Position numbers and translations under genes: made by a program. 47,468 bases of DNA from an uncultured bacterium (GTDB taxonomy: Bacteria > Nitrospirota > Thermodesulfovibrionia > Thermodesulfovibrionales > CALJEL01). The stretch is taken from the NCBI GenBank assembly GCA_938074335.1, contig CALJEL010000076.1, forward strand, positions 1 to 47,468, written 5' to 3'. The first letter of the stretch is position 1; each line of letters begins with the position of its first letter. Below, piece by piece: positions 1,927 to 43,884 of this stretch. The notes under the pieces are model-generated. The model was not told the origin of the DNA. It saw nothing but the letters and a program-made list of their open reading frames with translations, and searched no databases.

Positions 1927-1970
1927 ATCTTAGCCAGAAGATTATGGCAATTGCTACCATTAAGTCCATA

Positions 1971-2017: not shown

Positions 2018-2022
2018 ATACT

Positions 2023-2388
2023 ATGCCCCTGGAAGGCAGACATCGCATACTCATAATAGACGATGATGAGGCTATTATTAAGCTCTTAAGTGATTTCCTC
2101 ACCCTTGCCGGCTTTTATGTAAGAACTGCAAGGGATGGTCTTTCAGGCCTTGAGCTTATTAAAAAGGAGACCTTTGATATTATAATCACTGATTGTGATA
2201 TGCCTGGTATGAGTGGTATAGAACTGACAGCTTTACTTCGTTCAATGAATCCCTCTTTATCTATAATTGGAATAAGTGCAGATAGAAAAGGGGAAGACTT
2301 TCTCAAGGCAGGTGCTGACCTTTTTATATCCAAGCCTTTTAAGCTTTCAAGTCTTCTTGAGAAGATTGTAGAAAGGTGTTCAGGCTGA
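2023..2388 (+). CDS. Single-domain response regulator (CheY-like)
   Basis: This 121-residue protein is one receiver domain. It has the acidic cluster D13-D15, the phospho-acceptor D57 in TDCDMPGMSG, S85 in the switch position and K104 in SKPF. There is no output domain, so it must act through protein contacts, as CheY or Spo0F do. No kinase gene is adjacent. The only plausible start has no ribosome binding site and lies at the expected transcription start of a strong promoter. Its 3' end overlaps the convergent mltD-like gene by 9 bases. Confidence 0.85.
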   Translation: MPLEGRHRILIIDDDEAIIKLLSDFLTLAGFYVRTARDGLSGLELIKKETFDIIITDCDMPGMSGIELTALLRSMNPSLSIIGISADRKGEDFLKAGADLFISKPFKLSSLLEKIVERCSG

Positions 2389-3639
2389 TGGGGTTTTTCT
2401 TCTGTAGGACCTTCTCTTTTTCTTGAGGTCATCAGGATCTGGTTTAAAACCATCAGGGGGGAGTTTTATCTCTATATCAGGCTTTAGAGCATGCTCCTTT
2501 ATTTCAGGATTAAGGGCATAGATCACTGATTCAGGAATTTTGTATTTTTTTGCAATTCCTGCTATTGTCTCACCTCTTTTTACAATATGAATTTTAACAG
2601 TATATCTTTCTTCCTTCGGGATGGATAATAGATTTTGAATAAATATCTCCTTTTTATCAGCAGGGATTCTTATCCTGTAAGTTGCCTGATCTGGAGGGGT
2701 ACACCATCTCTTGAGTTCAGGATTCAATAATCTTATGGTCTGGATATCTGTCTCAGCAGCCCTTGCTATAACCTCAAGGTCTACAGGAGATTCAATCTCC
2801 ACCTCTGAAAATTCAACGGGCTGATGGTATTCAATATCTTCAAATCCATATTTTTCAGGTTCAAGGGCAATGAGACTTGCTGCTACAAATTTTGGTACAT
2901 ACTCCCTTGTCTCTCTTTTCAGATAGCGTTTTTTCTGAAGGAGTGTCCAGTGGTCATCTGCCCTGGTTTTTCTTAAAGCCCTGAGGACCTTTCCTTCTCC
3001 AGCATTATAGGCTGCCATGGCAAGGTGCCAGGAATTGAACATATCATAAAGGTCTTTTAGATACCTGGCAGCAGCCTCTGTAGACTTTACAGGATCACGC
3101 CTTTCATCAATCCACCAGTTTATGGTAAGGCCATATTTTTTTGCTGTTGATGCTATAAACTGCCATGGTCCAACAGCCCTGCTTCTTGAATAGGCATTTG
3201 TATTAAAACCACTTTCTATTAATGGTAAAAATACAAGTTCCTTTGGTAGGCCATTCTTTACAAGGATTTCCTTCATAGTATCAATATACATTCCAGCCCT
3301 TGAAAGCCAGAGGCTGAATCGGTCTCTCAATCTATTTGTAAAGGTATTTATATGCCTTTCCACAGCCCTTACAGCAAGGTCATTTGAATCATAATCATGA
3401 ATCAGGACCTTGAGGTCATAGATATCTTCTTCCGAGGCTGAGGCAACAGGGTCTTCTTCTTTATCACTCAGTATCTCTGTTTTTAAGGTATGGTTCTGGT
3501 CTGAAGAATTGTCATTGGTTATAAGGTCAAATTTGTTTTCCAGTGTGGAGATAGAATTATCACCATAAGCAGATTGAATAAAAATAATGATAAAGACAAT
3601 TATGAAACCAGAAATAATGCTTTTCAACCCAGGACTCAC
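2380..3639 (-). CDS. mltD: Lytic transglycosylase with LysM domain (MltD-like)
   Basis: This 419-residue exported enzyme should cleave the MurNAc-GlcNAc bond of peptidoglycan to give 1,6-anhydro ends. It starts at GTG 3639, seven bases after AGGAGG. A hydrophobic signal segment (about residues 5-27, ending QSAYG) is followed by an acidic linker. The SLT domain lies at about 135-270, with the catalytic Glu in LIESGFN, the GPWQFI motif and MAAYNAGEGKV. One LysM repeat (about 350-398, YTVKIHIVKRGETIAGIAKKY) binds glycan strands. The family often has two or more LysM repeats; only one is clear here. Confidence 0.88.
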   Translation of the reverse strand: MSPGLKSIISGFIIVFIIIFIQSAYGDNSISTLENKFDLITNDNSSDQNHTLKTEILSDKEEDPVASASEEDIYDLKVLIHDYDSNDLAVRAVERHINTFTNRLRDRFSLWLSRAGMYIDTMKEILVKNGLPKELVFLPLIESGFNTNAYSRSRAVGPWQFIASTAKKYGLTINWWIDERRDPVKSTEAAARYLKDLYDMFNSWHLAMAAYNAGEGKVLRALRKTRADDHWTLLQKKRYLKRETREYVPKFVAASLIALEPEKYGFEDIEYHQPVEFSEVEIESPVDLEVIARAAETDIQTIRLLNPELKRWCTPPDQATYRIRIPADKKEIFIQNLLSIPKEERYTVKIHIVKRGETIAGIAKKYKIPESVIYALNPEIKEHALKPDIEIKLPPDGFKPDPDDLKKKRRSYRRKTPSA

Positions 3640-3741
3640 TCTAACACCTCCTGCTTTAATTTAGCAAAAAACATGCTAAAGAAAATAATAAAATTTTTCT
3701 TTTAAAAATAATGAGATTTAATTTGCCAGCGTTGTTATCCC

Positions 3742-3776
3742 TGACAAAAACTGTCATATTATACCAAAAACTGTCA
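3742..3776 (-). promoter_or_regulatory. Extended -10 promoter of the mltD-like gene with flanking direct repeats
   Basis: On the minus strand TGG-TATAAT (TATAAT at 3763-3758) is an extended -10 element about 120 bases upstream of the GTG start. The sequence TGACAGTTTTTG occurs twice in the same orientation, at 3776-3765 and 3756-3745, 20 bp apart on either side of the -10 box. The second copy extends into the small palindrome TGACAGTTTTTGTCA. This looks like a two-site operator, but the regulator is unknown. Confidence 0.45.
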
Positions 3777-3852
3777 AAAAAATTTGCTAAATTTTGCACT
3801 CTAAAATCCTGCCAGAAATCCTTAGAATTGCTTTAATATTCCTTCCAGAAAT

Positions 3853-3987
3853 CTGTTAAACCCCCAGTTCAGTAAGTTCCTTCACTGACATGGGAGTGCC
3901 CTCCTTTTTTGAAAAGTTTAATTTAAATTAATGGAGGATACACCCTTTCCTCTTAATGTTTCAATTTACACAGTAGATTTTACACTA
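3853..3987 (-). repeat. Direct repeat, copy 2 (broken gene start plus upstream region)
   Basis: This block matches the block at 1-145 in sequence and orientation, including AGGAGG and an ATG (3891-3889). It reads MSVKELTELGV and then stops at 3858-3856. Compared with the intact start, two extra bases in the GGGGG run shift the frame, so this copy encodes only 11 residues. It lies directly downstream of the HAMP remnant. Confidence 0.7.
3856..3891 (-). pseudogene. Truncated start of a gene related to the left-edge gene
   Basis: The reading frame MSVKELTELGV ends at a TAA after 11 codons because of a 2-base insertion relative to the MSVKEITELSLT start at 37. No continuation longer than about a dozen codons is found in other frames. 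The ribosome binding site is still good, so the peptide could still be made, but nothing suggests a function. Confidence 0.6.
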
Positions 3988-4116
3988 TCTCTTCAGGATC
4001 TCTATTGCCTTTTTTAACGATACCTTCATCCTTTCAAAGGCATCTGCAAGAAGTTTCATCTCATCATTAGTTTTTACTTCAAACCGTTTATCAAGATTCC
4101 CACGGCTTACCTCAGT
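3985..4116 (-). pseudogene. Remnant of the 3' end of a HAMP-domain gene
   Basis: Read on the minus strand, this stretch encodes TEVSRGNLDKRFEV, then NDEMKLLADAFERMKVSLKK, then AIEILKR and a TAG at 3987-3985. It matches the C-terminal HAMP segment of the intact heme-HAMP protein at 42469-43350 (DEISRGNFAKDFEVKAGNEI and so on). Everything upstream (membrane helices and heme domain) is missing, and the frame is +1 relative to the PATAN-like remnant joined to it. Confidence 0.8.
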
Positions 4117-4486
4117 TGGTGATAGTATTTATAAAGATCTCCATTACGCTCTGAACCTTTTCAAAAGGGATAAGCTCATTATCCTTTAAATCTGTCTCCA
4201 CAGGTGTAACTGTATCTTCATCAATCCCGAAGGTCTTTAATAATTCCTCTGTCAAAGGGCTATCCAGTTTTTTTAAGGGCTTTATCCCTTCAATAAAATT
4301 CAACTCAATGATCTCTTTATTCTTTATATATTCAATTGTCTCATCCGGTGGTCTGTTCCCAATGGAGATATAAACTACCTCCCCCTCTTCTATACTGACC
4401 TTGCAGAGATGAGGCTCATCCTTAAACTTGATAACAATCTGCCCTGTCTTCTAAGCCTTGAGGTATTTTTTAAGTTTAAAAATCAT
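4112..4486 (-). pseudogene. Degraded paralogue of the PATAN-like gene at 43363-43884
   Basis: The frame begins at ATG 4486 (MIFKLKKYLKA), meets an in-frame TAG at 4453-4451, then reads on as QIVIKFKDEPHLCKVSIEEGEVVYISIGN through to FEKVQSVMEIFIN and a TGA at 4114. It aligns along its length with the intact gene at 43363-43884 (SVKLKDEPHLLKVYIDRGEVVYVTLGT). The last third is missing: the frame runs straight into the HAMP remnant of the next gene. A nonsense codon plus an internal deletion mark it as a pseudogene. Confidence 0.8.
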
Positions 4487-4525
4487 AAATTTCTTTAAAC
4501 TGATCCCCCAGAAAATTATTGCAAT

Positions 4526-4531
4526 TATAAT
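4526..4531 (+). promoter_or_regulatory. -10 box upstream of hemW
   Basis: A perfect TATAAT lies 12 bases before the ATG at 4544, so transcription should start a few bases before that ATG. No clear -35 box is visible. The promoter and ATG lie outside the inserted repeat element, so transcription and translation both read through the insertion. Confidence 0.45.
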
Positions 4532-4543
4532 TTATACTAAGAT

Positions 4544-6094
4544 ATGAGTCAAGCCATCCTTCAGGACCCTAAACTGCCGATAGGAATGGCGGGGGATGCC
4601 GAAAAGACAATACCAGCACCCCAGAAAATCGTCAGATTTTCTGGGGACCCCGCTTGCGACACCTTAATAGTGCAACAGAGCGGCAGAGCGACAGAGCGAC
4701 AGCTCTGGGAGAGAGGTAGCCGCAGGCTTCAGCCTGCGTGGCGTAGGCTTCCAGCCTGCGAATGGTGGAAATACAAAAAACGCCTTCAACAGGCTGGAAG
4801 CCTGTTCTACAAGCTTGCGGCTACCAGCTTTAGCACTATGGTGTCGCACTGTCGCACTATCGCACTGTGGCTCGGCTTTGAGGCATCCCCCGCCATTAGA
4901 GCACGGGGTGAAGACAAGCTTCACCCCGTTAACCCCGATAAAAATGCATTTCTATCAGCAAATTTAGGTCAGGATAAAATCACTGGTCTTTATATCCATA
5001 TACCTTTCTGTGCCAGAAAATGTCCTTACTGTGACTTTTATTCTCTGGAAGGCAGGTCCTCAGGATTAATTGACGATTATATCTCCGCCCTGATAAAGGA
5101 GATGGGTCTTTATCACGAACAGATGAACCATATAAAGACGGTTTACATTGGTGGTGGCACACCATCCATCCTCAATATTGCTCAACTTACTGTTTTACTT
5201 GAAGGGATTTACAGGTATATTAAGGGTTCAGGACTTATGGAGTTTACAGTGGAGGTAAATCCTAAAAGTATAACCGGCGAGAAATTAAGATTATTTAAAG
5301 ATTATGGTATTACGAGGATAAGCCTCGGGATTCAATCATTTAATGAAAGGGATTTAAAGATCCTTGGAAGGCTCCATTCCGTAGATGATTCATTAAAGGC
5401 GGTTGATGATATTAAAAGGCTTTTCTTTAACCTATCTGTGGACCTCATTTACGGCATTCCGGAACAGACCTTAAAAGACTGGCAAGAGAATCTCTCCATC
5501 ATTGAAGACCTGGATCCAGATCACATCTCTACTTATGAACTGACCGTGGAAGAAGGAACTCCCCTTCATCAAGAAATATCAAGGGGCCTATTAAAAAAAC
5601 CTGATGAAAAAGAAATAGTAGATATCTACGAAAAGACCCATAACTATCTTGAAAAAAAGGGTTATATTCACTATGAGGTTTCAAACTTTGCAAAAACTGA
5701 TAGACTATGTCTTCATAACCTCAACTACTGGAAGAGGGGAGAATATATAGGCATTGGAGCTGGTGCTCACTCATTCATTAATAAAAAAAGAATAGAAAAT
5801 TATAAGGACCTGAGGATCTATCAGAATTCATTAAAGGAAGGCAGGTTTCCCTATAAGAAAATAGTTGAACTAAGCCCTGAGGATGAGTTCGTAGAATTTA
5901 TCATGCTCGGTCTAAGGCTCAAAGAAGGGATATCCCTTGATAGAATTCCTGGAGAGACTTCATTTAAAGAAAGGGTTCTCAAAAGGTGCTTACCATTAAT
6001 TGAAAGAGGTCTCCTGAAAAAGGAGGATAATTTCCTTAAGCCCACGCTGAAAGGTTTTCTCCTGCTAAATGAGGTAATAACAGCGCTTATTTAA
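4544..6094 (+). CDS. hemW: HemW-like radical SAM protein with an in-frame repeat insertion
   Basis: HemW (formerly called HemN-like) is a radical SAM heme chaperone of the coproporphyrinogen III oxidase family. The 4Fe-4S/SAM motif is C156-x3-C160-x2-C163 (CARKCPYC), followed by IGGGTPSIL, the VEVNP segment, and the family C-terminal domain. The true oxidase HemN has a longer N-terminus with extra conserved residues; the LYIHIPFC start is HemW-type. At 516 residues it is about 136 longer than usual. The excess is residues 9-144, encoded by the repeat element at 4567-4968 plus one 6-bp duplication. Without it the protein would begin MSQAILQDKITGLYIHIPFC, a normal start. No other good start codon lies between the element and the core. 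Confidence 0.85.
   Translation: MSQAILQDPKLPIGMAGDAEKTIPAPQKIVRFSGDPACDTLIVQQSGRATERQLWERGSRRLQPAWRRLPACEWWKYKKRLQQAGSLFYKLAATSFSTMVSHCRTIALWLGFEASPAIRARGEDKLHPVNPDKNAFLSANLGQDKITGLYIHIPFCARKCPYCDFYSLEGRSSGLIDDYISALIKEMGLYHEQMNHIKTVYIGGGTPSILNIAQLTVLLEGIYRYIKGSGLMEFTVEVNPKSITGEKLRLFKDYGITRISLGIQSFNERDLKILGRLHSVDDSLKAVDDIKRLFFNLSVDLIYGIPEQTLKDWQENLSIIEDLDPDHISTYELTVEEGTPLHQEISRGLLKKPDEKEIVDIYEKTHNYLEKKGYIHYEVSNFAKTDRLCLHNLNYWKRGEYIGIGAGAHSFINKKRIENYKDLRIYQNSLKEGRFPYKKIVELSPEDEFVEFIMLGLRLKEGISLDRIPGETSFKERVLKRCLPLIERGLLKKEDNFLKPTLKGFLLLNEVITALI
4619..4646. repeat. Conserved hairpin (12-bp stem) of the repeat family
   Basis: CCCCAGAAAATC, loop GTCA, then GATTTTCTGGGG form a perfect 12-bp stem. 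The same stem recurs at 11386-11413, 19730-19756, 22823-22850 and 44498-44525, with loops that differ in sequence. Confidence 0.9.
4715..4825. repeat. REP/REPIN-like unit nested in E1
   Basis: The unit is bounded by GGTAGCCGCA and its inverse TTGCGGCTACC. Inside are the hairpin CGCAGGCT-TC-AGCCTGCG (4721-4738), a related TAGGCTTCCAGCCTGCG (4744-4760) and AACAGGCT-GGA-AGCCTGTT (4788-4806). This is the form of repetitive extragenic palindromes mobilised by REP-associated tyrosine transposases in other bacteria. No such transposase is in the window. Confidence 0.7.
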
Positions 6095-6098
6095 TTTC

Positions 6099-7094
<996 letters not shown>

Positions 7095-9633: not shown

Positions 9634-10389
9634 TTATTCAATATTGAAAACTTCTTTTCTATACCTGCTCGGTGTAACCCCGATATATTTCTTGAAATAT
9701 CTTATGAAATTGCTCAAATCATCAAAACCTACTCCTGCTGATATCTCAGAGATCGATTTTCCAGAATCTTGAAGCAATCTCTTTGCCTTTTCAAGTCGCA
9801 TCAGACAAAGAAACTTCTTAGGGCTCTTCCCTGTATATCTTTTAAAAATCCTGCAGAAATGGAACCTGCTCAAACCAGCCTCCCTTGCCATATCAAGTAT
9901 TGAAAGTTTCTGATCGAGGTGCTCATTCAAAAAATATATAACCCTCAGGATGTTCTCGGGTATATCGGTTTCAGAGGAATCAAGAAGTTTTGATATCTCA
10001 ATGTCAGAGAAAGGATACCTCCTCTCCTTTGGCCCTCTCTTAAGTAAAAGGATGTCGTTTAATCTCTTCTTTAATTCATCAAAATTTACTGGTTTTTTAA
10101 AGAATTCCCTTGCCCCTGCCTTGAAGGTCTTAATTGCTATCTCTTCTGAACTCTCTTCAGTTAAAAAAACAACGGGTATATCAGGTCTCCGGGTCTTTAT
10201 TTCTTTTAATAGAGTTATACCCTTATGGGGATTATAACCACAATCAATAATGAGAAGATCCATCTCAATCTTTCTGACAGTCTCTGACTGGCTCAGGGGA
10301 TATACAAGTATAGACTCTCCTTCTAATGAAAAACTCCCATAAATACCCTCCCCTTCATCTGAAAGGATAACTATAGGTTTTCTGCTCAT
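9634..10389 (-). CDS. Response regulator with AraC-type DNA-binding domain
   Basis: I choose the start at ATG 10389 (MSRKPIVILSDEGEG), which has GGAGG upstream; an upstream ATG at 10407 is less likely. The 251-residue protein has an N-terminal receiver (about residues 1-118), with acidic pair D11-E12, phospho-acceptor D49, and the KKP motif near residue 100. A C-terminal AraC helix-turn-helix pair (about 150-248) includes MAREAGLSRFHFCRIFKRYTG and the family signature ISAGVGFDDLSNFIRYFKKY. REC-AraC fusions usually control small regulons. No partner kinase is adjacent. Confidence 0.82.
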   Translation of the reverse strand: MSRKPIVILSDEGEGIYGSFSLEGESILVYPLSQSETVRKIEMDLLIIDCGYNPHKGITLLKEIKTRRPDIPVVFLTEESSEEIAIKTFKAGAREFFKKPVNFDELKKRLNDILLLKRGPKERRYPFSDIEISKLLDSSETDIPENILRVIYFLNEHLDQKLSILDMAREAGLSRFHFCRIFKRYTGKSPKKFLCLMRLEKAKRLLQDSGKSISEISAGVGFDDLSNFIRYFKKYIGVTPSRYRKEVFNIE

Positions 10390-10407
10390 AAGCCTTAAAC
10401 CCTCCAT

Positions 10408-10810
10408 GAGAACTCTTAAAAATCTTATTGAAAAAATTAATTTCCATCTCCTTTATTCAAGCGGACAGCGACCATCAATTTATTTACTAACAATTAACTT
10501 TCAAAAGTTTAAAAAGCAATAATTATGCCTGTTTTAACTGGTAATTATTAAACATTTTTATTAATAAAAATTTTTTAAAATGCGTATTTTCACCATTCAA
10601 GGTGAGTGTTTTTCCACAGCTGGATAAGTTTCCTCTTCCTGTCTTTTCTTTATCCTTTGATATCCCTTTGTCATTCCTTTCTGTTTCTAAAATCTTTACC
10701 TCAAACAGTAAAATTTTTATTTACCCTTTTTTAAAATTTGTAACCTAAATAATATTTAAGTTGTGGATAACCAGTTAGAGCTTACGGACATTTTTGAGAT
10801 CTGCTGAACT
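10408..10810. other. AT-rich non-coding stretch with DnaA-box-like sites
   Basis: I see no gene here. The stretch is very AT-rich, especially 10480-10590 and 10700-10760. A perfect DnaA-box sequence, TGTGGATAA, lies at 10762-10770. TTTTCCACA (10610-10618, one mismatch to TTATCCACA) is followed at once by GCTGGATAA (10619-10627), giving an inverted pair. AATAATTA and TAATTATT form an inverted repeat near 10520-10550. Too few boxes are present to call an origin. Confidence 0.4.
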
Positions 10811-11511
10811 GCTGATAAAATGTGCGGTATGAATGCCTTTATAGCGACACCTTAGTAGTGCGACCACCTCATCCCTTCACCTCTTCACCCCTTCACCTAC
10901 GAGGTTACTGGTGTGAGGCATACTGCACATTGAAAATATATTTCTGTTGACAGATTACGGATCTCCTCAATTTGCTGATAGAAATGCATTTTTAATGGCG
11001 GGGGCTGCCTCAAAGCCTTCTTAGACCAGCAGTGCAGTAGTGCAGTAGTTTTTATTGATAGAGCAGTAGACCAGCAGTTTTTATTAAGGAATTTTTTCTT
11101 ATTATTTAACCTTTATTTTGCCATTAGAAAACTGGCAGTCTGCCTCAAAGTCTTTACAATGCGACAATCTTTATTTATTATGTAACAAAAATTCATCACT
11201 TAAAAAGGTGAAGTCAGTTATGTATAGTAAGCTTATTAATAGTATTACACCAAGGTGTCGCAGGTAAAGCCTTTTCGGCAGCCTGCCAGTTTTTATTGAA
11301 GGTTTATTATAAATTTCTATTGGCAGATTGCGGTCAACTGTTGCTCTGCTGCGCTGCTGCTCTGTTAAGGTGTCGCAGGCGGGGTCCCCAGAAAATCGTC
11401 AGATTTTCTGGGGTGCTGATATTGCCTTTAGAGCACGGACTGAAGACAAGCTTTACCCCGTGAACCCCAAAATATCGGCGTCCCCTCCATTCCTATCGGC
11501 AGTTTAGGGGG
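10811..11511. repeat. Composite repeat region E2 (several partial elements, mostly inverted relative to E1)
   Basis: This non-coding stretch holds partial copies of the family. There is an end-like TTGCTGATAGAAATGCATTT near 10972, AATGGCGGGGGCTGCCTCAAAG (about 10997-11018), words built on AGCAGTAGTGCAGTAG (about 11027-11075), GCCATTAGAAAACTGGCAGT (about 11119-11138), and the 12-bp-stem hairpin at 11386-11413. A decayed second hairpin lies at 11432-11462, and an end CCTATCGGCAGTTTAGGG at about 11493-11510. It lies between the divergent AraC-type and argB genes. Confidence 0.8.
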
Positions 11512-11579
11512 ATCTATGCATAGTTGACAGAATATGTTTTCAGGATTTAAAATTCATTTTTAATTAACGGAGGAAGTGA

Positions 11580-12458
11580 ATGAAAAAACTTGCTGAGAAG
11601 GCCTCTATCCTTGTAGAGGCACTGCCGTATATAAGAAACTTTTATGGAAAGACCTTTGTAATAAAATATGGAGGTGCTGCACAGACAGATGAGGTCCTGA
11701 AATCTTCTTTTGCCCAGGACATAGTGCTTCTCAATTATATAGGAATTCATACAGTGGTTGTTCATGGAGGCGGACCAAAGATATCAAGGACCATGGAGCA
11801 GATGGGCAAAAAACCAACCTTTATTCATGGCCAGAGGGTTACTGACAGGGAGACCATGGATATTGTGGAGATGGTTCTTGCTGGAATAATTAATAAAGAG
11901 ATCGTTAATCTCATAAACAGTCATGGAGGAAAGGCTGTGGGCCTGAGCGGTAAAGATGGAGGACTCATAAAGGCAAAAAAGAAGTTGATTAAAAAATTCT
12001 CTCCCGATTCACAAACAGAGGAGATCATAGACCCTGGCCTTGTTGGAGATGTAGAGGAGATCGATCCTTCCATACTCCATACACTCAAGGAAAAAAACTT
12101 TATACCAGTAATCGCACCTGTAGGATATGATAGAGAAGGAAATACACTTAACATAAATGCCGATTATGTGGCCTCTGCTATTGCTGGTGCACTGAGGGCA
12201 GAGAAACTTATCCTCCTTACTGATGTGGAAGGAATAATGGATGAGAAGGGTAATCTCATATCATCTATCAGGGCATCAAAGGCCGAGAAACTCATTGACA
12301 GGGTGATTAAAGGTGGCATGATTCCCAAGGTTCAGGCATGCATATCTGCCCTCAAGCAAGGCACATCAAAGACTTATATTATTGATGGCAGGGTTGAACA
12401 TGCTCTCCTGCTTGAGATATTTACAAAGGAAGGAATAGGAACGGAAATAGTCCTTTAA
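11580..12458 (+). CDS. argB: Acetylglutamate kinase
   Basis: ArgB phosphorylates N-acetylglutamate with ATP, the second step of arginine synthesis. The 292-residue protein starts after a GGAGG site. It has the amino-acid-kinase glycine-rich segment [10 protein letters not shown] (residues 60-69), K28 in FVIKYGG, the [15 protein letters not shown] substrate motif and a [10 protein letters not shown] segment. The last part ([18 protein letters not shown]) is the conserved ArgB C-terminus. It is followed three bases later by mtgA in an apparent operon. Confidence 0.95.
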
Positions 12459-12461
12459 GAG

Positions 12462-34656: not shown

Positions 34657-35160
34657 ATGAATCATAAGAAGCTCACTATCCTGATCATAGGTCTTTTATC
34701 ATTCTTTATCCTTACTGATAGCCTTCTACATGCCCAGAAGATAATAAAAATCAGGGGTTCTACAAAGGGAGTTGAAGGTGCAGGTGAAGGGCTTGTTGAT
34801 ATAGGGACTGCCTCAAGAAACCTCCATCCTGATGAATATGGAATGGCTGGTGCAATACTCATCGGTCATAACAGTGAGGCCATTGTAGAGGTCTCAAAAG
34901 ACCCGGGAGCCATTGGTTATGTATCAATTGGCTCTGCAGAGAGGGTGAAGAGAAAACTCGGCAAGATTAAAAGGATAAAGATTGATGGCATAGATGCCTC
35001 AAGGGAAAATGTGAAGGATAAAACCTATCCCATAATAAGGCCTCTCAATCTGCTGACAAAGGGAAAACCTTCTGGAGATGTGCAGGGATTTATAGAATTT
35101 CTCTTCACACCCCAGGGTCAAAACATAGTTAAAAAACTTGATTATATTCCAATAAAATAG
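34657..35160 (+). CDS. Shortened PstS-like periplasmic binding protein
   Basis: The 167-residue protein has a signal peptide (about residues 1-26, ending LLHAQ) and segments typical of phosphate-binding PstS-like proteins in the right order: IKIRGST, then GEGLVDIGTASRNLHPDE, then GAIGYVSIGSAERVK, then YPIIRPLNLLTKGKPSGDVQGFIEFLFTPQGQNIVKKLDYIPI. Family members are usually about 270 residues. Two inner stretches appear to be missing, after RGST and after HPDE, without loss of frame. Full ligand enclosure is doubtful. It lies nine bases before the MCP gene and may present a ligand to it or be a decaying gene. Confidence 0.7.
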   Translation: MNHKKLTILIIGLLSFFILTDSLLHAQKIIKIRGSTKGVEGAGEGLVDIGTASRNLHPDEYGMAGAILIGHNSEAIVEVSKDPGAIGYVSIGSAERVKRKLGKIKRIKIDGIDASRENVKDKTYPIIRPLNLLTKGKPSGDVQGFIEFLFTPQGQNIVKKLDYIPIK

Positions 35161-35169
35161 GAGAAGACC

Positions 35170-36873
35170 ATGAAAGGACTTTCTGTCAGAGTAAAGATAT
35201 TGCTTACCCTTATAGGCCTTTTGCTCCTTGCCACAACAGGTATCTTTATCTATCATGCCATTGAGATGGCTGAAGAACTTGAGAGGACATCCCTTGATAG
35301 ACACAAGCTCTTTGTAACCTCTCAGGCATCAAGGGCCTTTAACCTTCTTATTACCGAAGATATTAATGTCTTAAAAACCCTCACCGATGAGATAAAATCA
35401 ACAGAGGATATTCTATATGTAGTCTTTACTGATGCTGATGGAAAGGTCATAACCCATACCTTTGGAAGTGATGTCCCGCAGGAGCTTTTAGCAATAATAA
35501 GAGAAGGCAAACCAAAGGTAGAGGAATTCATTCTACAGGGTTTTGGAGAACATTATAATATAATCTCACCCGTAGGAGACTACGGCTTTCTGACTGCAGG
35601 CTTTAAGAAACCCTCAACCTTTGAACTCATAAAAAAGGAGATCGGGGACTTCCTCATCGTCTATGGTATAGCACTATCAATCGGAATAATCCTTTCATTC
35701 TTCATGTCATCAAGGATACTTAACCCTCTCAATGACCTAATGAAGGGTATAGAAAGATTTGGTAAGGGAGAGGCAGAAGAGATAAAGGTAAGGTCAATGG
35801 ATGAGTTTGGCGAAATAGCAAGGGTATTCAATGAAACACAGCAAAGGTTAAAGGGACTAATTCTGACCGAGGCAGAGAGGCAGAAGATGCAGGAAAATAT
35901 AGTAAACTTTCTCAATCTCCTGAGTGCTGCTTCAGAAGGAGACCTCAGTCAGAGGGCTGAGGTCACACCGGATATATTTGGCTCTCTTGGTGATGCCTTT
36001 AATCTAATGATTGAGGGTCTTACAGGACTTATAAATGATGTTAAGAACTCTGTTGAGGGAGTCTCTAAGGAGGCAACAAGGATACTAAATATACTTAAAG
36101 AAATGGAAAAGGGTGCAGAGACACAGATGGCTGAGGTGAAAAAGGCAACAGAGGCAACTGATGAGGCAGCCCATTCAGCCATGGCAATAAGTGAAAAAAC
36201 AGCAGAAGCTCAACAGATAGCAACTATGGCAATCCAGGCAACTGAGAGGGGTTCAAAGACCGTACTTGAGGCTATTGATGGAATACAGCTCATAAGGGTT
36301 ACCATACAGGCAATTAATAAGAGGATGAAATTCCTTTCTGAAAAACTCATGGAGATAGGAACGATCTCAGGCCTGATTACAGAGATAGCCAACAGGACAA
36401 ACCTCCTTGCAATCAATGCCTCTATAGAGGCATCAAGGGCAGGTGAACAGGGCAAAGGATTTATTGTCATAGCAGAGGAGATCAGGGGACTTGCTGAGAG
36501 GGCAGCAAAATCCACAAAACAGATAGGTGATATAATTGGAGCAATCCAGACAGAGTCAGGAGAGGTCACAAGACATCTTGAAGAGGCTACTGGATTTGTT
36601 GAGAAGGAGACAAAGATTGCACAGGAGACAGGAAAGGTCTTTACAGAGATTGATGATATAATCAAAAAAATCAGCACCATAATTTCAGAGATACATGAGT
36701 CCTCAGAAGGTCAGAAAGGTCTGAGCTCCAGGGTAGTCCTCTCCATGGAAGAGGTCCAGAGGATCTCACTCCAAATGCTCAAGCTTGTCCATGACTTCAG
36801 GGATGTGGCAAGGACACTTTCCGGGACATCGGAAAGACTGATGGGCTCTGTCCAGAAATTCAGGGTAGAGTAA
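35170..36873 (+). CDS. Methyl-accepting chemotaxis protein (PilJ-like)
   Basis: This 567-residue receptor has a first membrane helix (about residues 8-30), a periplasmic region of about 125 residues that may be a small Cache domain, a second helix (about 160-180), and a HAMP domain. A second HAMP-like unit ([35 protein letters not shown], about 248-285) is typical of PilJ-type receptors. The signalling domain has the hairpin tip [27 protein letters not shown]. It should feed the CheW/CheA pair encoded on the opposite strand, probably controlling type IV pili. No CheR or CheB is in the window. Confidence 0.9.
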
Positions 36874-36904: not shown

Positions 36905-37501
36905 ATGGAGAGAATCAATTATCCCCTTCTTACAGATATAGTAAAAAGGCATAAGGAAGAAATTGAAGAAATCCTGTCAAGGCATGACCTTGACATTGCC
37001 TTAAAGACAGCAAGGTTAAGACTCCTTGTAAGGCAGATTGCTGAAGAACTTTCAGGAAATACTGGATACGGATCAATTGATGAATTTTTTGAAGACTATG
37101 ACAGAGGCTCATCGCCACTTATAAAGCTTGAAGGAGAAGGTGTCAGGTATGGTGAGGTGATTATCCTTAAGGATTGCCCGATGGTGACTGTATTTGACCT
37201 CTTTAAAAATGGAAATGGCTTTCCTGAATACTGGAAAAAGATGCCCGAAGAATATATGACTCACTTCAAAAATGAGGCAATCCTTCATCCCCTGTGTATT
37301 ATTCATCAGAGGTTCAGGGATGAGCTTGCATCAAGGATTAAAAAGGGTAATTCCGTTGTTCACTCTATAGCAGTTGCCTGTAGATCTACAAGCTCAGGAA
37401 AGATTGTATATTCAGAATTTGGTCTTCAGATAGCAAACATGGAAAAAGAAGCCCTTGAGCTTATTATTAATGGCAGGGCCTGCGCCTTTGTGGTGAAATA
37501 A
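36905..37501 (+). CDS. Protein of unknown family in the chemosensory cluster (paralogue 1)
   Basis: I do not recognise the family. The 198-residue protein has no signal peptide or membrane helix. It is a paralogue of the next gene; conserved between them are CP (C91), the phrase FKNEAILHPLCIIHQRFRDEL with H128, C131 and H134, and a near-terminal AC (C193). The paired Cys and His residues suggest a bound metal, heme or iron-sulfur centre, or a redox role; this is inference. It follows the MCP gene by 31 bases with AGGAGG and overlaps the next gene by one base. Confidence 0.75.
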   Translation: MERINYPLLTDIVKRHKEEIEEILSRHDLDIALKTARLRLLVRQIAEELSGNTGYGSIDEFFEDYDRGSSPLIKLEGEGVRYGEVIILKDCPMVTVFDLFKNGNGFPEYWKKMPEEYMTHFKNEAILHPLCIIHQRFRDELASRIKKGNSVVHSIAVACRSTSSGKIVYSEFGLQIANMEKEALELIINGRACAFVVK

Positions 37502-38103
37502 TGAAACAATTCAATCTTCAGGGAACTGAGCTCACAGCACGCTTTAGCCCCCATATTGATGAGGTAAAAGACATAATCATTCGAAGGGGAGATATTACCC
37601 TTGCTGTCTCATCCCTGAGGAGATTTGCAAGAGGTTTTATAAGAAACTTCATTCAGGACCTCGTATCCACCATTGATATTGATGAACTTAATAATATAAC
37701 TGAATCAGAAGATATTAAAGACAATATTTTCTTAAAAAGGCTTGATGGAAGACTCCTGAGATATGAATCTTCCAGAGGGGAATTGTTGATAAGCACAGTC
37801 TGTCCTTTTGCAAATTTCTTTGCTACTATTACTGAAGAGACCTTTCTTAATGAATATATAAAGGCATTTAAAAATGAAGGCATCATACATCCCTTCTGTA
37901 TAGTACATCAGATAATTAGAGAAGAACTGCTGGCAAGGATAAGCAAAGGTCCCCTCTTCACACATCCTGTATTAATTGGAACACGGAATATGATTACAGG
38001 TGCCCTTGCTATTTCAAAAAATAACCTCTCACTTATCAATATATCAGAAGTGGACTTTAAAAAGATACTTAACGACTATGCCTGTGTTTTTTTAATACTT
38101 TAA
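37501..38103 (+). CDS. Protein of unknown family in the chemosensory cluster (paralogue 2)
   Basis: This 200-residue soluble protein is the tandem paralogue of the preceding one. It keeps CP (C101), FKNEGIIHPFCIVHQIIREEL with H130, C133 and H136, and the terminal AC (C195), while most other positions have diverged. The start overlaps the previous stop (TAATG), so translation is coupled and the two proteins may form a complex. Its end overlaps the end of convergent cheA by 4 bases. The function is unknown; a cytosolic ligand or redox sensor for the chemosensory array is one possibility. Confidence 0.75.
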   Translation: MKQFNLQGTELTARFSPHIDEVKDIIIRRGDITLAVSSLRRFARGFIRNFIQDLVSTIDIDELNNITESEDIKDNIFLKRLDGRLLRYESSRGELLISTVCPFANFFATITEETFLNEYIKAFKNEGIIHPFCIVHQIIREELLARISKGPLFTHPVLIGTRNMITGALAISKNNLSLINISEVDFKKILNDYACVFLIL

Positions 38104-40424
38104 GCCTGAACAGGCAGATATTTCCTCAAGACCTCAAGCATAGCCCTTTCTTCAAAGGGTTTAACAAGATAATCCCTAACCCCACTCTGAAGTGCCTTGA
38201 GTTTATGTTTTTCCGCACTCCTTGAGGTAAGGACAATAACAGGTATATCCTTCCATCTTTGTGAGGTCTTGAGTCTGTGAATCAGCTCATAACCATGCAT
38301 CACCGGCATCTCAAGGTCAGTTATAACAAGGTCAACAGGATTTTCTTCAAGTATATTAATAGCCTCTGCTCCATTGGTAGCACTCAGAACCCTGAACTTC
38401 CTTGCCTCAAGGAAGAGCGTGAGATATTTCCTCACACTCAATGAATCATCCACCACAAGAATAGATTTCCTTGTCTCTTTCTTTTCTTCTTTAAACCCGA
38501 ATTCAGCGGGTTTTACCTCAGTCTTAAATATACTCAAAGGATTAAGAACAAACCTCAATTTTCCATCTCCAGAGATTGTTGAACCTGAATAGATCGTAAG
38601 TCCTGAAAGAAATTTGTTCATCGGCTTTACGATGGTCTCTTCCTGACCCACTATATCATCCACCACAAGACCTGCCCTTCTATCAGTAAGATTACAGACA
38701 ATAAGAGGTCTCCTTGATCCCCTGACTCCACCATTATGACCATATCCTAAAACATCCGAGAGCCTTTTTATCTCTATCTCCGAACCCCTGTGAAGGAATC
38801 TGTCTGGTGAATCTGTCATATCAATCTCTGTTACCTCCTCAACAAAATTCATGGGTATAACAAACTCTGCACTCTCTATTCTTACCACTACAACATTTGT
38901 TATTGCGAGGGAGCTCGGAACCTTTATTGTAAAGGTAGTTCCCATCCCCACCTCAGAATCCACCTCTATAGAACCATTAATCTGGGCTATAAGATTCCTT
39001 ACCGCATCAAGTCCCATACCCCTTCCTGAACCCATGTCGGCTGAAGTGCTTGTGGTAAATCCTGGCATGAATATAAGGCTCAGGAGTTCCTGTTTTGATG
39101 GCTTGTGCTCAGGTTTCATAAGACCGAGTTTTACAGCCTCTTCAAATATCCTGTATGTGGTGATACCCCTTCCATTATCATGGACCTCTATAAAAACAAA
39201 AGGGCCTTCCCTTCTGGCATTTAGCATTATGACACCAGAGGATTTTTTACCCTTTTGTTTTCTTTCATCAGGCCTTTCAATACCATGAATAATCGCATTT
39301 CTCACAAGATGCATCAAGGGATCAAAAAGCCTCTCAAAGATAACCTTATCAATCTTTGTATCACCACCTGATATAAGAAGCTCCACTTCCTTTCCATATT
39401 GCTCTGCCATTTCCTTTACAGGTCTTGAGAATCTCTGGAAGAGCCTTCCTATCTCTATCATCCTCATCTCGGATATCTCTGTTCTCAAAAGCTTGATCAG
39501 GTTATCAATTGACTTAAGATCATCAGAAAAGGTATCAAAGAACTCTGAAAGACCTTTAAGTGCCTCGGCTATATCTGCTGTCATCTCCTGTAGTTTTCTT
39601 GAAAAAAGGTTCAGGTCATCGTATCTGTCAAATTCAAGCTCACCAAATTCTGCAAGGAGAGGATCCACATATTTGACGCTTCCAGGAAGTGAATAGGAAT
39701 AACGGTCTGAAAAAGAGCTGACCTCCTTGAGAAGTTTTGCACCAGAGTCTGTTATCTCATCAGCTATATCAATTGTTTTTTTGATTCTCTGCAGGAGGTA
39801 ATTTTTCTTTATTGTTATCTCACCTATAAGATTAAGGATATTTTCAATCTTAGCAATGTTTATCCTTATAAAATTTCCGGTAAAGAGTTCAATATCCTCT
39901 TTCCTTCTGCCAATGGTTATCCTCTTTTCCAGTACAGGTGAGGCAGGCTTTATCTCCTCAACAGACGGTTCAGCAACAACTGGCTGCGGAATTTCATCAA
40001 CCTGTTTTATCTCTTGTTCTTTTGAAGGTTTGCTGACCTGTGCCTTTAAGCCCTCTTCTATAAATCTTATAACCTCTTCATCCGCTCCAGGGGTCTCCTT
40101 CTCTCCTGAAGCTACCTTCCTTATCTGTTCCTTAATTGTATCAAGACCATAAAGGAGCAATTTCTTTATAGTGTTATCTGCCTTTCTCTGACCATCCTTT
40201 AATTCCTCAAGGATATCCTCCATCTTGTGGGCAATCCTGCTTATGGCATTGAGTTTAACAAGTGCAGCAGCTCCTTTAAGTGTATGGGCAGACCTGAAAA
40301 GAGACTCTATAGATGAGGCATCTGTAATCTCCTCAAGATTGGATATCCCTTCTTCAAGGTTATGGATGTGTTCCTCAGCTTCCTGAAGAAAGAATTCAAG
40401 GAGTCCTGAGGTATCGTAAGACAT
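38100..40424 (-). CDS. cheA: Chemotaxis histidine kinase CheA with C-terminal receiver
   Basis: This 774-residue hybrid has an Hpt domain (phospho-acceptor H47 in RSAHTLKGAA), an 80-residue linker, a dimerisation helix pair (about 185-300), the ATPase domain (HLVRNAIIHG, DNGRGI, GMGLDAVRN), a CheW-like domain, and a receiver with D703 (VITDLEMPVMHG). No CheY-binding P2 domain is apparent between Hpt and dimerisation regions. CheA-REC fusions are typical of pilus or gliding systems such as ChpA and FrzE. It overlaps cheW by one base. Confidence 0.93.
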   Translation of the reverse strand: MSYDTSGLLEFFLQEAEEHIHNLEEGISNLEEITDASSIESLFRSAHTLKGAAALVKLNAISRIAHKMEDILEELKDGQRKADNTIKKLLLYGLDTIKEQIRKVASGEKETPGADEEVIRFIEEGLKAQVSKPSKEQEIKQVDEIPQPVVAEPSVEEIKPASPVLEKRITIGRRKEDIELFTGNFIRINIAKIENILNLIGEITIKKNYLLQRIKKTIDIADEITDSGAKLLKEVSSFSDRYSYSLPGSVKYVDPLLAEFGELEFDRYDDLNLFSRKLQEMTADIAEALKGLSEFFDTFSDDLKSIDNLIKLLRTEISEMRMIEIGRLFQRFSRPVKEMAEQYGKEVELLISGGDTKIDKVIFERLFDPLMHLVRNAIIHGIERPDERKQKGKKSSGVIMLNARREGPFVFIEVHDNGRGITTYRIFEEAVKLGLMKPEHKPSKQELLSLIFMPGFTTSTSADMGSGRGMGLDAVRNLIAQINGSIEVDSEVGMGTTFTIKVPSSLAITNVVVVRIESAEFVIPMNFVEEVTEIDMTDSPDRFLHRGSEIEIKRLSDVLGYGHNGGVRGSRRPLIVCNLTDRRAGLVVDDIVGQEETIVKPMNKFLSGLTIYSGSTISGDGKLRFVLNPLSIFKTEVKPAEFGFKEEKKETRKSILVVDDSLSVRKYLTLFLEARKFRVLSATNGAEAINILEENPVDLVITDLEMPVMHGYELIHRLKTSQRWKDIPVIVLTSRSAEKHKLKALQSGVRDYLVKPFEERAMLEVLRKYLPVQA

Positions 40425-40834
40425 CAGATATCCTCCCTGATCATATAGGTCTCAAAAAATTTATTGATGTCAATAATATCTTCCTCAGGTATCTCCCTTG
40501 AGCCAGTAAAACCTGGTAGCCCCTCCGAAAGAAACCCTATTTCTTCTTTCATTGCCTCCACCACTATAAGCATGTTAGGTTCTTCAGCTGATGCGTCAGT
40601 ATTGTAAATCTTCGCAAGGTCAATAACAGGAACAACCGTTCCTCTTAATGGAATGGCACCCCTTATATAATCGGGTGCAAGAGGAAGAGGAAAGACCTCT
40701 TTAATCTCTACAACCTCTTTGAGGTTATCCAGCGGGAGATAATAGCTACGACCTCCCCTTCTGAAAAAACAATAGGAGGGCCTTTCAACTTCCTGTTCAG
40801 GAGAATCTTCTATCTTTCTTGCCTCATCCACCAA
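40424..40834 (-). CDS. cheW: CheW-like adaptor protein
   Basis: CheW links receptors to CheA. This 136-residue protein is a single CheW domain with EVFPLPLAPDYIRGAIPLRGTVVPVIDL. The N-terminal 20 residues are acidic and non-conserved. The start overlaps the end of the CheY gene by 11 bases; the exact start is uncertain (a GTG/ATG pair lies nearby). It is translated just before cheA (TGATG overlap). Confidence 0.88.
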   Translation of the reverse strand: MVDEARKIEDSPEQEVERPSYCFFRRGGRSYYLPLDNLKEVVEIKEVFPLPLAPDYIRGAIPLRGTVVPVIDLAKIYNTDASAEEPNMLIVVEAMKEEIGFLSEGLPGFTGSREIPEEDIIDINKFFETYMIREDI

Positions 40835-41189
40835 GATATCTTTTCACTGTAAGGAGAAGTTCAAGTGGTTCACAGGGCTTTGTAAGATACTCATCAGCAC
40901 CCTGCTTTGTACCCCAGAGTTTGTCACTGGGCTGATCCTTTGAAGTAAGAAGTATCACAGGGATATTCTTCAGTTTTTCATCGCGCTTTATGTCTCTACA
41001 GAGCTGAAAACCATTCTTCTTCGGCATAACAACATCAAGAACAATAAGGTCAAAGGGTTCAGACCTTACCAGTCTTTCTGCCTCCTCTCCATCTGTTGCA
41101 ATAACAAGTTCATGACCTGTCTGTGATAGGACAGATTTTATAAACTGTATATCCGTAGGACTGTCCTCCGCAATAAGAATCCTTGACAT
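40824..41189 (-). CDS. CheY-like response regulator
   Basis: This is a 121-residue single receiver domain with acidic pair E8-D9, phospho-acceptor D52 in LDVVMPKKNG, T in LLTSKD, and the KPCEP lysine motif. Within the cluster it is the likely output of CheA, comparable to PilG/PilH. A GGAGG site precedes the ATG. Confidence 0.9.
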   Translation of the reverse strand: MSRILIAEDSPTDIQFIKSVLSQTGHELVIATDGEEAERLVRSEPFDLIVLDVVMPKKNGFQLCRDIKRDEKLKNIPVILLTSKDQPSDKLWGTKQGADEYLTKPCEPLELLLTVKRYLGG

Positions 41190-41199: not shown

Positions 41200-42465
41200 T
41201 TATTTTGTCTTTTTCTTAAGGATTCCTGCCCTTGTGAGCGTATATATAATTCGTTTCACCTCATTTTCCTCCATACCGCTCATTTTAATTATATCACTAA
41301 GCGTTCTTTTTCCGTCAATAAGAGAAAAGATCCTTAACTCATTATCATCAAGATTTATATCCTCCATAGCAACATCTGTCATCAATCTTATAAAGACCAT
41401 GTCAGGGTCCTGGAACATCCTGGCAGCATACTTTCTCTCATCTACCCTCCTTGCTCCCTCAAGGATAAGATGAGAAGCTGGTATCCTCACCTTCACATCA
41501 GCAAGATGCCCCGGTATCTGCATCTTTTCAAAAAAGAAATTTCCGCTATCAAGTTCCATAGAAGAATAAACAGCCTCCCTTGTGCGATCCTCCAGTATCT
41601 TCATTATCTCATCCTCTGTGAGTATCTTCTCATCCACAAAGGCCCTGAGTATAGGAATCCCTGATTTCTTTGCAGTCCTGTATGCCCTGTAAAAGGCCTC
41701 TCTTGATACATTCATCTTTTTTTCTATAATCTCACCTGAAAGAAGGCTCTTGCCCTGCTTGCTCGTTGAGCCATAGTAGATATTCCCCTTATCAAAGTAT
41801 ATTTCTGCTGTCATGAGAGGTGAATAGAGAGATAGCTTTCCAGTAGCCTTTGTGGTGTCAAGGAGCTGTAAAAGGTCTGAAAGGCTGAAGTCACTGATAT
41901 CTCCGCTGAGGATTATACTTGAGGTCTTTACAACACCTGAATGTTTGAGGATATCAGAAAGTGTCCTCTGTATTAGTACAGGTAATTCTTTGTAAAGATA
42001 CCTGCTTAAAAGTCTGTCTATTGTCTCTTCAACAGCACTTTCTGTAAGCACCTCTGCCTCTTCAATCACCTCTGCAACACCTGCAAGCTCTTCCTGAGGG
42101 CTCAATATAGAATTTACCTTCTCAACGAGTTCTTCTGGTTGAAAGGGCTTTATAAAATAATCAACCACACCAAATTCTTCTGTAAACTTCTCACCAACAG
42201 CCTCTCCCTTGGCTGTAATGAGTATAATCGGCACATCTTTAAGTGATGGATTTTTTCTGGCAAGTTTACAGAACTGGTAGCCATTCATCTTTGGCATCAC
42301 AAAATCTACAAGTATAAGGGATGGTGAGACCTTCTGGGCAATATCAAGGCCTTTCTCTCCATCCTCAGCAGTGTAGACATTATAGCCATTCTCCTTAAGT
42401 ACAACCTCTGCAAGTTTTCTTACAGTTGCACTGTCATCAATAACAACTACATTGCCTCTTGGCAT
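41200..42465 (-). CDS. Response regulator with PATAN (DUF4388) domain
   Basis: The 421-residue protein has a receiver (about residues 1-122, phospho-acceptor D54 in LVDFVMPKMNG), a linker, and a PATAN/DUF4388 domain (about 185-325, with GDISDFSLSDLLQLLDTTK and TAEIYFDKGNIYYGS). A winged-helix-like C-terminus (about 345-421, LSDIIKMSGMEENEVKRIIYTLTRAGIL) follows. In cyanobacteria, PATAN-receiver proteins regulate type IV pilus motors in phototaxis, which suits this cluster. It sits between the heme-HAMP and CheY genes. Confidence 0.87.
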   Translation of the reverse strand: MPRGNVVVIDDSATVRKLAEVVLKENGYNVYTAEDGEKGLDIAQKVSPSLILVDFVMPKMNGYQFCKLARKNPSLKDVPIILITAKGEAVGEKFTEEFGVVDYFIKPFQPEELVEKVNSILSPQEELAGVAEVIEEAEVLTESAVEETIDRLLSRYLYKELPVLIQRTLSDILKHSGVVKTSSIILSGDISDFSLSDLLQLLDTTKATGKLSLYSPLMTAEIYFDKGNIYYGSTSKQGKSLLSGEIIEKKMNVSREAFYRAYRTAKKSGIPILRAFVDEKILTEDEIMKILEDRTREAVYSSMELDSGNFFFEKMQIPGHLADVKVRIPASHLILEGARRVDERKYAARMFQDPDMVFIRLMTDVAMEDINLDDNELRIFSLIDGKRTLSDIIKMSGMEENEVKRIIYTLTRAGILKKKTK

Positions 42466-42468: not shown

Positions 42469-43350
42469 TTATTTCTTCCTCAGGATATCCATTGCCTTCA
42501 TAAGGCTGATCTTCATCCTTGTAAAGGCATCTGCAAGGGTCTTTATCTCATTACCTGCCTTCACTTCAAAGTCCTTTGCAAAATTACCCCTGCTTATCTC
42601 ATCAGCAGTCTGAACAAGCTCCTCAATAGGTTTTATAATGCTTGCCTTAATTAACCTGTCAATTACAAAGATAATAAACAGGAAGAATAAACTGTAAACA
42701 ATTGAAAATATCAGCAGTGCCCTTTTAGCATTCTGGATCGGAACATTTGCAGGGACATATACTGTATTTGCACCTATTATCTCTCCCACCTTCCAGTTGT
42801 ATCCAGATGTGGTGCCATATCTCTTTTTCTGTTCCTCTGTAACTGTCGCAGGATCTCCATGGCACCTGAGGCAATGGCTATCAACCACGATAGGTGTCAT
42901 GATAACATATGAGCTTCCCTGCTGCGTATCTATAAAACCACGCCATTGATCTGAGAACCTGCCGCTTCTGAACTCATTAATCTTTTCGGTCTCAAACCGA
43001 TTCGCCTTATTAACAGGGTTAAGCGGATTTATGCATGCGAATTTAAATGAATACTGCCTGTCGGATTCTGTAATTATATCTGATATCTCCCTGATAACAT
43101 AAAAACCTGATGTTAGTTCAACAGGTTCTTTATCTGAAAGTTCCTCAAGCACAGGTCTCATTGTTCCACCTACATATTCCTTTATGGCATCCATAGCCCT
43201 GAGCATCATCTGTGCCCTTTCAATACTCTCCCTTTCAGCATTCTTTAAAAGAACCTGATAACTTATAGCAATTATAAATGGAAGTGAAACAAAGTAGACT
43301 ATAACCATTATCAGTGTAAAACTCTTTCTTAATCTTAGATTCCTGAACAT
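42469..43350 (-). CDS. Heme-binding DUF3365-HAMP membrane protein without an output domain
   Basis: The 293-residue protein has a membrane helix (about residues 10-32), a periplasmic DUF3365/Tll0287-like domain with one c-type heme site (C160, C163, H164 in SHCLRCHGDP), a second helix (212-231) and a HAMP domain (232-285), and then stops at RKK. Such sensors normally continue into a kinase, MCP or cyclase domain; here there is none, so it must signal through partner proteins. The neighbours upstream and downstream both contain PATAN-type domains. A degraded copy of its HAMP end survives at 3985-4116. Confidence 0.87.
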   Translation of the reverse strand: MFRNLRLRKSFTLIMVIVYFVSLPFIIAISYQVLLKNAERESIERAQMMLRAMDAIKEYVGGTMRPVLEELSDKEPVELTSGFYVIREISDIITESDRQYSFKFACINPLNPVNKANRFETEKINEFRSGRFSDQWRGFIDTQQGSSYVIMTPIVVDSHCLRCHGDPATVTEEQKKRYGTTSGYNWKVGEIIGANTVYVPANVPIQNAKRALLIFSIVYSLFFLFIIFVIDRLIKASIIKPIEELVQTADEISRGNFAKDFEVKAGNEIKTLADAFTRMKISLMKAMDILRKK

Positions 43351-43362: not shown

Positions 43363-43884
43363 TTAGATTTTGTATTTTGAACTGAACCTTCCCTGTTCAG
43401 AAGCTGGTAATTCTTTAGTGAGGGAATCTACAAGCATTAGATAATCTCCTTGAGTCATGGGATTGCCTCTTGTATATGCAATCTTTGAGAACAGATCATC
43501 AATTATGAGTTTACCAATAGGACCTATGAGCTCAATAAACTCTGCCTCTAACCTCTGCACATCTTGAGGGGATACTGTAACACCGGTGCTTGCTTTTAAT
43601 GCCTCTGCTGAGAGTAAACCAAGGGCCTCTATCAGTTTCTCTGTGCAACCCCCCTCAACTCTATGGGGTGCTGTTACACCTTTAAGGAAAAAATATTCAA
43701 CAGGAACTGCGTTCTTCAATCTTGAAAAACACTCCTCATTCTTTAAAGTTCCAAGGGTTACATATACAACCTCACCCCTGTCTATGTAAACCTTCAGGAG
43801 ATGGGGCTCATCCTTGAGTTTAACTGATAAAACACCACTGTCTGCCTTTGTAACATGGAGTTTTATTATCTCTGCAAGCCCCAT
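43363..43884 (-). CDS. Small PATAN-like protein
   Basis: This 173-residue soluble protein has a PATAN/DUF4388-like start (residues 10-60, GVLSVKLKDEPHLLKVYIDRGEVVYVTLG, cf. the REC-PATAN protein) and a helical second half (about 105-165, RLEAEFIELIGPIGKLIIDDLFSKI). It is 12 bases upstream of the heme-HAMP gene. A pseudogene copy followed by a HAMP remnant at 3985-4486 shows that this pair once existed twice. It may be the cytoplasmic receiver of the heme sensor signal; this is inference. Confidence 0.75.
   Translation of the reverse strand: MGLAEIIKLHVTKADSGVLSVKLKDEPHLLKVYIDRGEVVYVTLGTLKNEECFSRLKNAVPVEYFFLKGVTAPHRVEGGCTEKLIEALGLLSAEALKASTGVTVSPQDVQRLEAEFIELIGPIGKLIIDDLFSKIAYTRGNPMTQGDYLMLVDSLTKELPASEQGRFSSKYKI

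Follow-up and report, generated by a model that had tools for sequence, protein, structure and literature searches.

What do two small proteins of no recognizable family contribute when they are encoded between the receptor gene and the kinase gene of a chemosensory cluster? The question is raised by P0001 and P0002, adjacent genes on contig C76 of a 2.22 Mb genome (G000), positioned between an upstream MCP gene and a convergent CheA-REC gene (Table 1); the window referred to throughout is the whole of this contig, 47,468 nucleotides. The Pil/Pix-type set is complete in the window, with an MCP, a CheA that carries a receiver (REC), CheW, CheY and a PATAN-type (DUF4388) regulator. A CheA-REC hybrid and a DUF4388 regulator within an MCP-CheA-CheW-CheY set form what we take to be a Pil/Pix-type gene order, and DUF4388 is presumably the PATAN domain. 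The DUF4388 regulator is encoded at the end of the cluster distal to P0001 and P0002. The receptor was described as PilJ-like in the initial annotation; it is an MCP with HAMP and MCPsignal domains, but the domain search listed no PilJ-type model at E<=1, so that the designation derives from the surrounding cluster and not from a domain. In cyanobacteria, PATAN regulators have been linked to type IV pili (PMC7690835).

Table 1. Features of the window and of loci L099 and L100
Feature	Coordinates	Strand	Remarks
PstS-like solute-binding protein, short	34657..35160	+	upstream of MCP; domain search
MCP (HAMP, MCPsignal 2.1e-35; sCache_3_2 below cut-off)	35170..36873	+	upstream of P0001
AGGAGG ribosome-binding site of P0001	36891..36896	+	8 bases 5' of ATG 36905; read from sequence
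P0001	36905..37501	+	198 aa; four-Cys member (Cys91, Cys131, Cys159, Cys193, His134)
P0002	37501..38103	+	200 aa; diverged paralogue without third Cys (IGTRN replaces VACRS)
CheA hybrid: Hpt, HATPase, CheW, C-terminal REC	38100..40424	-	convergent with P0002
CheW	40424..40834	-	domain search
Stand-alone receiver, CheY-like	40824..41189	-	local REC profile
REC-DUF4388-wHTH response regulator	41200..42465	-	architecture equals N-terminal part of L099 fusion
Tll0287-like domain with CxxCH motif, HAMP	42469..43350	-	domain search; motif read by eye
Two Roadblock genes	L099 2022-2765; L100 7027-7793		beside DUF4388 regulator and TRAPPC3-like domain
Ras-like 155-aa GTPase	L099 2749-3216; L100 7781-8248	-	convergent with two Roadblock genes
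Third Roadblock gene of L099	102-560	-

P0001 and P0002 are 29% identical over 199 columns (E 3e-26), a similarity far above chance, and the pair is real and paralogous, as first proposed. The stop codon of P0001 and the start codon of P0002 have one base in common (TAATG, 37499-37503), which makes the suggested translational coupling plausible, and the 3'-end of P0002 overlaps the CheA gene by 4 bases. CP, the HPxCIxHQ sequence (HPLCIIHQ in P0001, HPFCIVHQ in P0002) and a C-terminal AC, singled out at the outset as kept between the two proteins, are all present in both. The third cysteine of the family, Cys159, is a threonine in P0002. For both proteins, Pfam yielded nothing below E 0.1 and NCBIfam nothing at E<=1, and the original assignment to an unknown family was borne out, with no meaningful profile match and none to a well-known family; a search of solved structures by sequence also returned no match. 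Weak Pfam matches of single members, including Piezo_cap, DUF6897 and SBDS_C, look like chance.

Among the genomes read, the tandem arrangement is seen only in the window genome. In a congener (G192, contig C10, about 5990-6570 of locus L096), P0001 is missing between the MCP and a P0002-like gene that carries a frameshift, through either gene decay or an assembly error. The other frame beyond this frameshift reads GTRN, as in P0002, and loss of the third cysteine is therefore common to the genus. Other chemosensory relatives have a single family copy within the cluster and G192 has only a P0002-like gene, so that an obligate form of the heterodimer envisaged in the initial annotation is not supported. 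The window genome also retains, at G000:C87:1320-1448 (L003/L069), the C-terminal 42 aa of a third family member; upstream of this remnant there is no open frame.

The family is thinly spread. Within the phylum, 198 genomes were searched with P0001 at E<=1e-3 and 18 matched, and profile A2 at E<=1e-5 matched 24 of 395 genomes. In the genome-contig collection, P0001 as a single sequence gave no match and profile A1, constructed from 25 of 27 loci (excluding L018, with an unclear start, and the L003 remnant), identified 34 loci. These belong to Nitrospirota, Desulfobacterales/Desulfobulbales, other Deltaproteobacteria or Proteobacteria records and one Omnitrophota, the named relatives being mostly Nitrospirota. 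The A1 search used one peptide motif, P[FL]C[ISL][VL]HQx[IFM]R, which forces part of the PxCxxHQxxR conservation in its 34 loci; rows from the P0001 phylum search are free of this forcing. The A1 sequences and all loci of L042-L061 except L044 (19 of 20), minus three identical sequences, gave 41 distinct rows. Gly77, Cys91, Pro129, Cys131, His134 and Arg138 are invariant, Gln135 is present in 39 rows, and Cys193 in 40, the exception being the frameshifted G192 copy. The Cys/His set first noted is therefore retained, except that the histidine of "HP" (position 128) is His in 21 rows and Ser in 20, and was incomplete, having missed Cys159 (39 of 41 rows; Thr in P0002, a gap in the G192 copy). 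In the tree, the chemosensory type forms one clade (starred) together with L005 and L021; P0002 groups with the G192 copy as its sister, and the great length of their branch makes their exact place unsure.

An AlphaFold2 model of P0001, based on alignment A1, has a pLDDT of 92.9 and a pTM of 0.88, and a second model, for the 205-aa branch (L056), a pLDDT of 88.9; the two are not fully independent, as their alignments have members in common. Foldseek placed a Thorarchaeota TRAPPC3 first for P0001 (E 0.77) and returned a best E of 0.092 for L056, with no match to either model reaching E 0.001. All 33 structural rows listed for P0001 are TRAPP/Bet3, BcsD, DmpR/MopR or guanylate cyclase H-NOX, and all 50 listed for L056 fall within the same TRAPPC3(Bet3)/V4R/BcsD/H-NOX superfamily. 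Among the matches listed, the best for P0001 is Bet3/TRAPP (Z 7.1, rmsd 3.5, 139 aligned; BcsD 6.2, DmpR 5.0, MopR 4.9, guanylate cyclase 3.9) and the best for L056 is BcsD (Z 8.0, rmsd 3.7, 133 aligned; Bet3 7.5, MopR 6.7, MJ1460 V4R 5.3, H-NOX 5.2, with PoxR and DmpR also present). Z values of 7 to 8 could by themselves be chance; the stronger argument from these models is that both lists contain nothing but one superfamily. The predicted structures have the helices and antiparallel sheet of the V4R/TRAPPC3/H-NOX superfamily, at moderate Z, and such a fold, if correct, is of the type expected for the soluble sensor or adaptor that was originally suggested. V4R and Bet3 are regarded as homologous (PMC2253512), TRAPPC3 has been placed in one group with V4R, H-NOX and CeSD in a study of Asgard archaea (PMC10933270), and V4R, HNOB and ATC hydrolase have been described as similar (PMC5847659).

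Comparisons of sequence profiles contribute little to the fold assignment. P0001 and P0002 do not match V4R (PF02830) at the gathering score, and one of 25 family members matches at E 0.082. Aligned by hhalign with 22 of 31 V4R loci, a set biased towards Cys-bearing V4R because the nine loci without the Cys pattern were dropped, the family scored 14.8 (E 0.19), a value matched or exceeded in 5 of 100 column shuffles; PxC is paired with PxC and Cys159 with the second V4R cysteine, and neither subgroup taken singly gave a sensible alignment. With ATC hydrolase (L135 excluded), the score was 20.0 (E 0.048; 95th percentile of shuffles 15.7, maximum 20.6), and Cys91-Pro92 falls on the CPF of that enzyme.

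In the P0001 model, Cys91 follows strand 2, Cys131 and His134 are at the start of the long helix, Cys159 is at a strand end and Cys193 opens the last strand, with three of these cysteines predicted to be about where V4R sensors hold zinc. The zinc in DmpR is liganded by three cysteines and one glutamate, Cys151, Glu172 (as printed), Cys177 and Cys185 (PMC7264223). Four cysteines hold the zinc of Asgard TRAPPC3, tethering the sheet to helix D; the ligand positions are not fully conserved, and mouse TRAPPC3 is without the zinc site (PMC10933270). Based on DmpR, Asgard TRAPPC3 and the modelled cysteine positions, a Cys4 zinc site is the best guess for the family, with Cys91, Cys131, Cys159 and Cys193 probably forming a metal site, most likely for zinc. 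The loss of one ligand in P0002 would then have a precedent.

The V4R proteins (DmpR, MopR, PoxR, MsvR) are like the family in predicted fold, in a cysteine at the helix start within PxC, in cysteines of the last strands and in a signalling role. The family differs in having no V4R profile match and in lacking the V4R C-terminal zinc hairpin (Glu-x2-Cys ... Gly ... Cys): column 156, the place of the Glu ligand, is Gln in 31 and Glu in 1 of the 41 rows, and the last two cysteines are separated by 33 residues in P0001 rather than about 7, with Cys91 an additional invariant cysteine. With TRAPPC3/Bet3, the family has in common the predicted fold (Z 7.1-7.5), four cysteines, as in Asgard TRAPPC3, and, at some loci, adjacent Roadblock and Ras-like GTPase genes. 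Unlike TRAPPC3/Bet3, it is bacterial and tied to receiver/PATAN regulators, with no TRAPP complex known; residues aligned by structure are about 7% identical. TRAPPC3/Bet3 itself is characterized by a dimer formed through its N-terminal helices, with flanking longin/Roadblock subunits.

The gene neighbourhoods of the family were surveyed with local iterated profiles in six frames. In type A, present in five genomes (the window, L096, L101, L031 and L098), the family accompanies an MCP-family gene, a convergent CheA-REC gene, CheW, REC and REC-DUF4388-wHTH. The chemosensory setting noted initially thus recurs; the link to DUF4388 and Roadblock, like the fold, had been overlooked. Compared with Pix/Pil-type clusters with PATAN regulators, the window has the same MCP, CheA-REC, CheW, CheY and REC-DUF4388, with P0001 and P0002 added between MCP and CheA. 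Three of the five type A genomes encode Tll0287-like sensors near the family (on the minus strand of the window, at L032 10339-11262 and at L096 11278-12159), and the kinases of both type C loci (L099, L100) have CxxCH in their N-terminal region; for all of these, including the Tll0287-HAMP protein of the window, a c-type heme input is possible. At the far end of the window cluster, a minus-strand gene (43363-43884) encodes a protein of 173 aa whose N-terminal part matches DUF4388 weakly (E 0.0018); a counterpart is kept at L032 (11272-11796).

In type B, a REC-DUF4388-Roadblock gene, often preceded by a histidine kinase and an NtrC-type regulator, is directly upstream of the family gene at 15 of the 34 genome-contig loci and at L097; at L056, Pfam confirms REC, DUF4388 and Roadblock. 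These 15 cases are largely one syntenic block and so not independent. L046 and L052 have one Roadblock gene directly upstream and another downstream, and the gene immediately upstream at L030 encodes DUF4388. In total, DUF4388 or Roadblock is on the locus in 22 of 34 cases, with neither nearby at the other 12 (L029, L033-L042, L044). As the entire window genome (2.2 Mb) has five DUF4388 matches over the cut-off, the linkage is unlikely to be by chance. At L035 (3676-11803) and its relatives L034, L036, L037 and L044, a family copy is near infC/thrS, a gene for a DUF362-ferredoxin protein and iron genes (FeoB and a DtxR-type repressor at L035, by Pfam), raising a possible link to iron.

Type C provides the one fusion seen, a single L099 protein with the order REC-DUF4388-wHTH-family domain, its wHTH called from weak MarR/DprA matches. 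Two Roadblock genes follow at each of L099 and L100, which also have an opposite-strand Ras-like GTPase gene, with Ras and Roc matches over the cut-off, and a histidine kinase gene. In a Roc/Ras search of 11 genomes, matches over the cut-off occur only at these two loci, with none in the window genome or in eight other family-bearing relatives; weaker matches in the window genome are in long frames (329 to 906 aa) that by size look like other GTPases. Based on their translations, gspE/gspF-like genes (1845-4778) and pseudopilin-like genes (10054-12461) flank the L100 locus, a location from which a role of the module in a secretion or pilus apparatus is possible. An association of PATAN genes with neighbouring MglB and MglA has been reported (PMC4316618), with the same closeness of DUF4388, Roadblock and small GTPase; the family loci add a TRAPPC3-like member, and V4R is not mentioned in the available part of that paper. 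For Asgard archaea, the combination of V4R/TRAPPC3 with Roadblock has been considered (PMC10933270). The literature searched, including the available parts of PMC10715001, PMC11580455, PMC12826048 and PMC9880817, describes no comparable module in Bacteria, a weak negative as subscription papers were mostly outside this literature.

We read P0001 and P0002 as members of an undescribed family of predicted TRAPPC3/V4R fold tied to PATAN regulators, and favour, with moderate confidence, a role in which a metal site and sensing by this fold are read by the DUF4388 regulator. Each protein would be a small, cytosolic and probably dimeric TRAPPC3(Bet3)/V4R-fold domain, in which the four cysteines, with His134 alongside, would bind a metal, most likely zinc, that pins the beta-sheet to the long helix and shapes a pocket. 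Ligand binding, or a metal or thiol redox change at the cysteine site, would alter the dimer, and the altered dimer would be read by the recurrent genetic partner, the DUF4388 (PATAN) response regulator; in the window, the reader would be the REC-DUF4388-wHTH protein of the Pil/Pix-type MCP-CheA-CheW-CheY cluster. P0002 would be a degenerate partner subunit, as found among Bet3 paralogues. The window pair is the chemosensory form of the family, with a tandem duplicate seen only here.

A protein that senses nothing and is purely a scaffold or adaptor, connecting MCP/CheA with the DUF4388 regulator in the way that Bet3 links TRAPP subunits, is conceivable but on the unlikely side. Bet3, a structural TRAPP subunit, is the best fold match of P0001, the linkage is conserved, with a fusion in L099, and the protein is small and stand-alone with no output domain; however, the invariant His134 and Arg138 beside the cysteines suggest more than structure, and V4R relatives bind ligands (PMC7264223, PMC10933270).

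It is unlikely that, rather than structural zinc, the four near-invariant cysteines hold an Fe-S cluster, or that the invariant His134 binds heme, in a sensor of redox state or of a gas, even with a heme-type Tll0287 sensor gene in the window cluster and a fold common to H-NOX, a heme sensor. The heme motif of H-NOX is YxSxR. This motif is absent from P0001, the YESSR of P0002 is YDSVK in the G192 relative, and P0002 is one cysteine short. V4R cysteines can act as redox switches in MsvR (PMC3729527), but characterized relatives with cysteines at about these places bind zinc (PMC7264223, PMC10933270). The initial suggestion of a metal, heme or cluster thus remains plausible, by analogy with these relatives, for a metal, and gained no positive evidence for heme or Fe-S.

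More broadly, and as a distinctly improbable extension, the family could belong to a bacterial TRAPP-like switch in which a TRAPPC3/Bet3-fold protein, Roadblock and a Ras-like GTPase are docked by PATAN to a receiver, so that two-component signals, together with the metal or ligand site, would set a GTPase in control of pili, secretion or polarity; all the parts are present at L099 and L100, and the window pair would be a chemosensory offshoot without the GTPase. That the family is instead an ATC hydrolase-related enzyme of C-S bond hydrolysis, a metabolic side gene of signalling clusters, is very improbable: ATC hydrolase (PF14196) and MetOD1 likewise have Cys-Pro after a strand (here CP(F/M) after the second) and a cysteine near the C-terminus, the hhalign score approaches the shuffle maximum and the similarity to V4R and HNOB is on record (PMC5847659), but the enzyme pattern is without His134, Arg138 and Cys159, PF14196 is missing from the Pfam families that 25 members matched at E<=1, the genes around the family serve signalling and, in one case, the family domain is joined to a response regulator.

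The reading of P0001 and P0002 as a metal-binding TRAPPC3(Bet3)/V4R-fold pair assigns a predicted fold and a probable metal site to a family with no library match, names a partner that can be tested, and adds a component to PATAN-linked pilus-type signalling; relatives of the pair adjoin signalling genes with a possible role in the control of pili or cell polarity. Papers cited here argue for a prokaryotic origin of the TRAPP complex from V4R and from Asgard archaea; a link between the TRAPPC3-like, Roadblock and Ras-like proteins of Bacteria would, if physical, bear on that origin.
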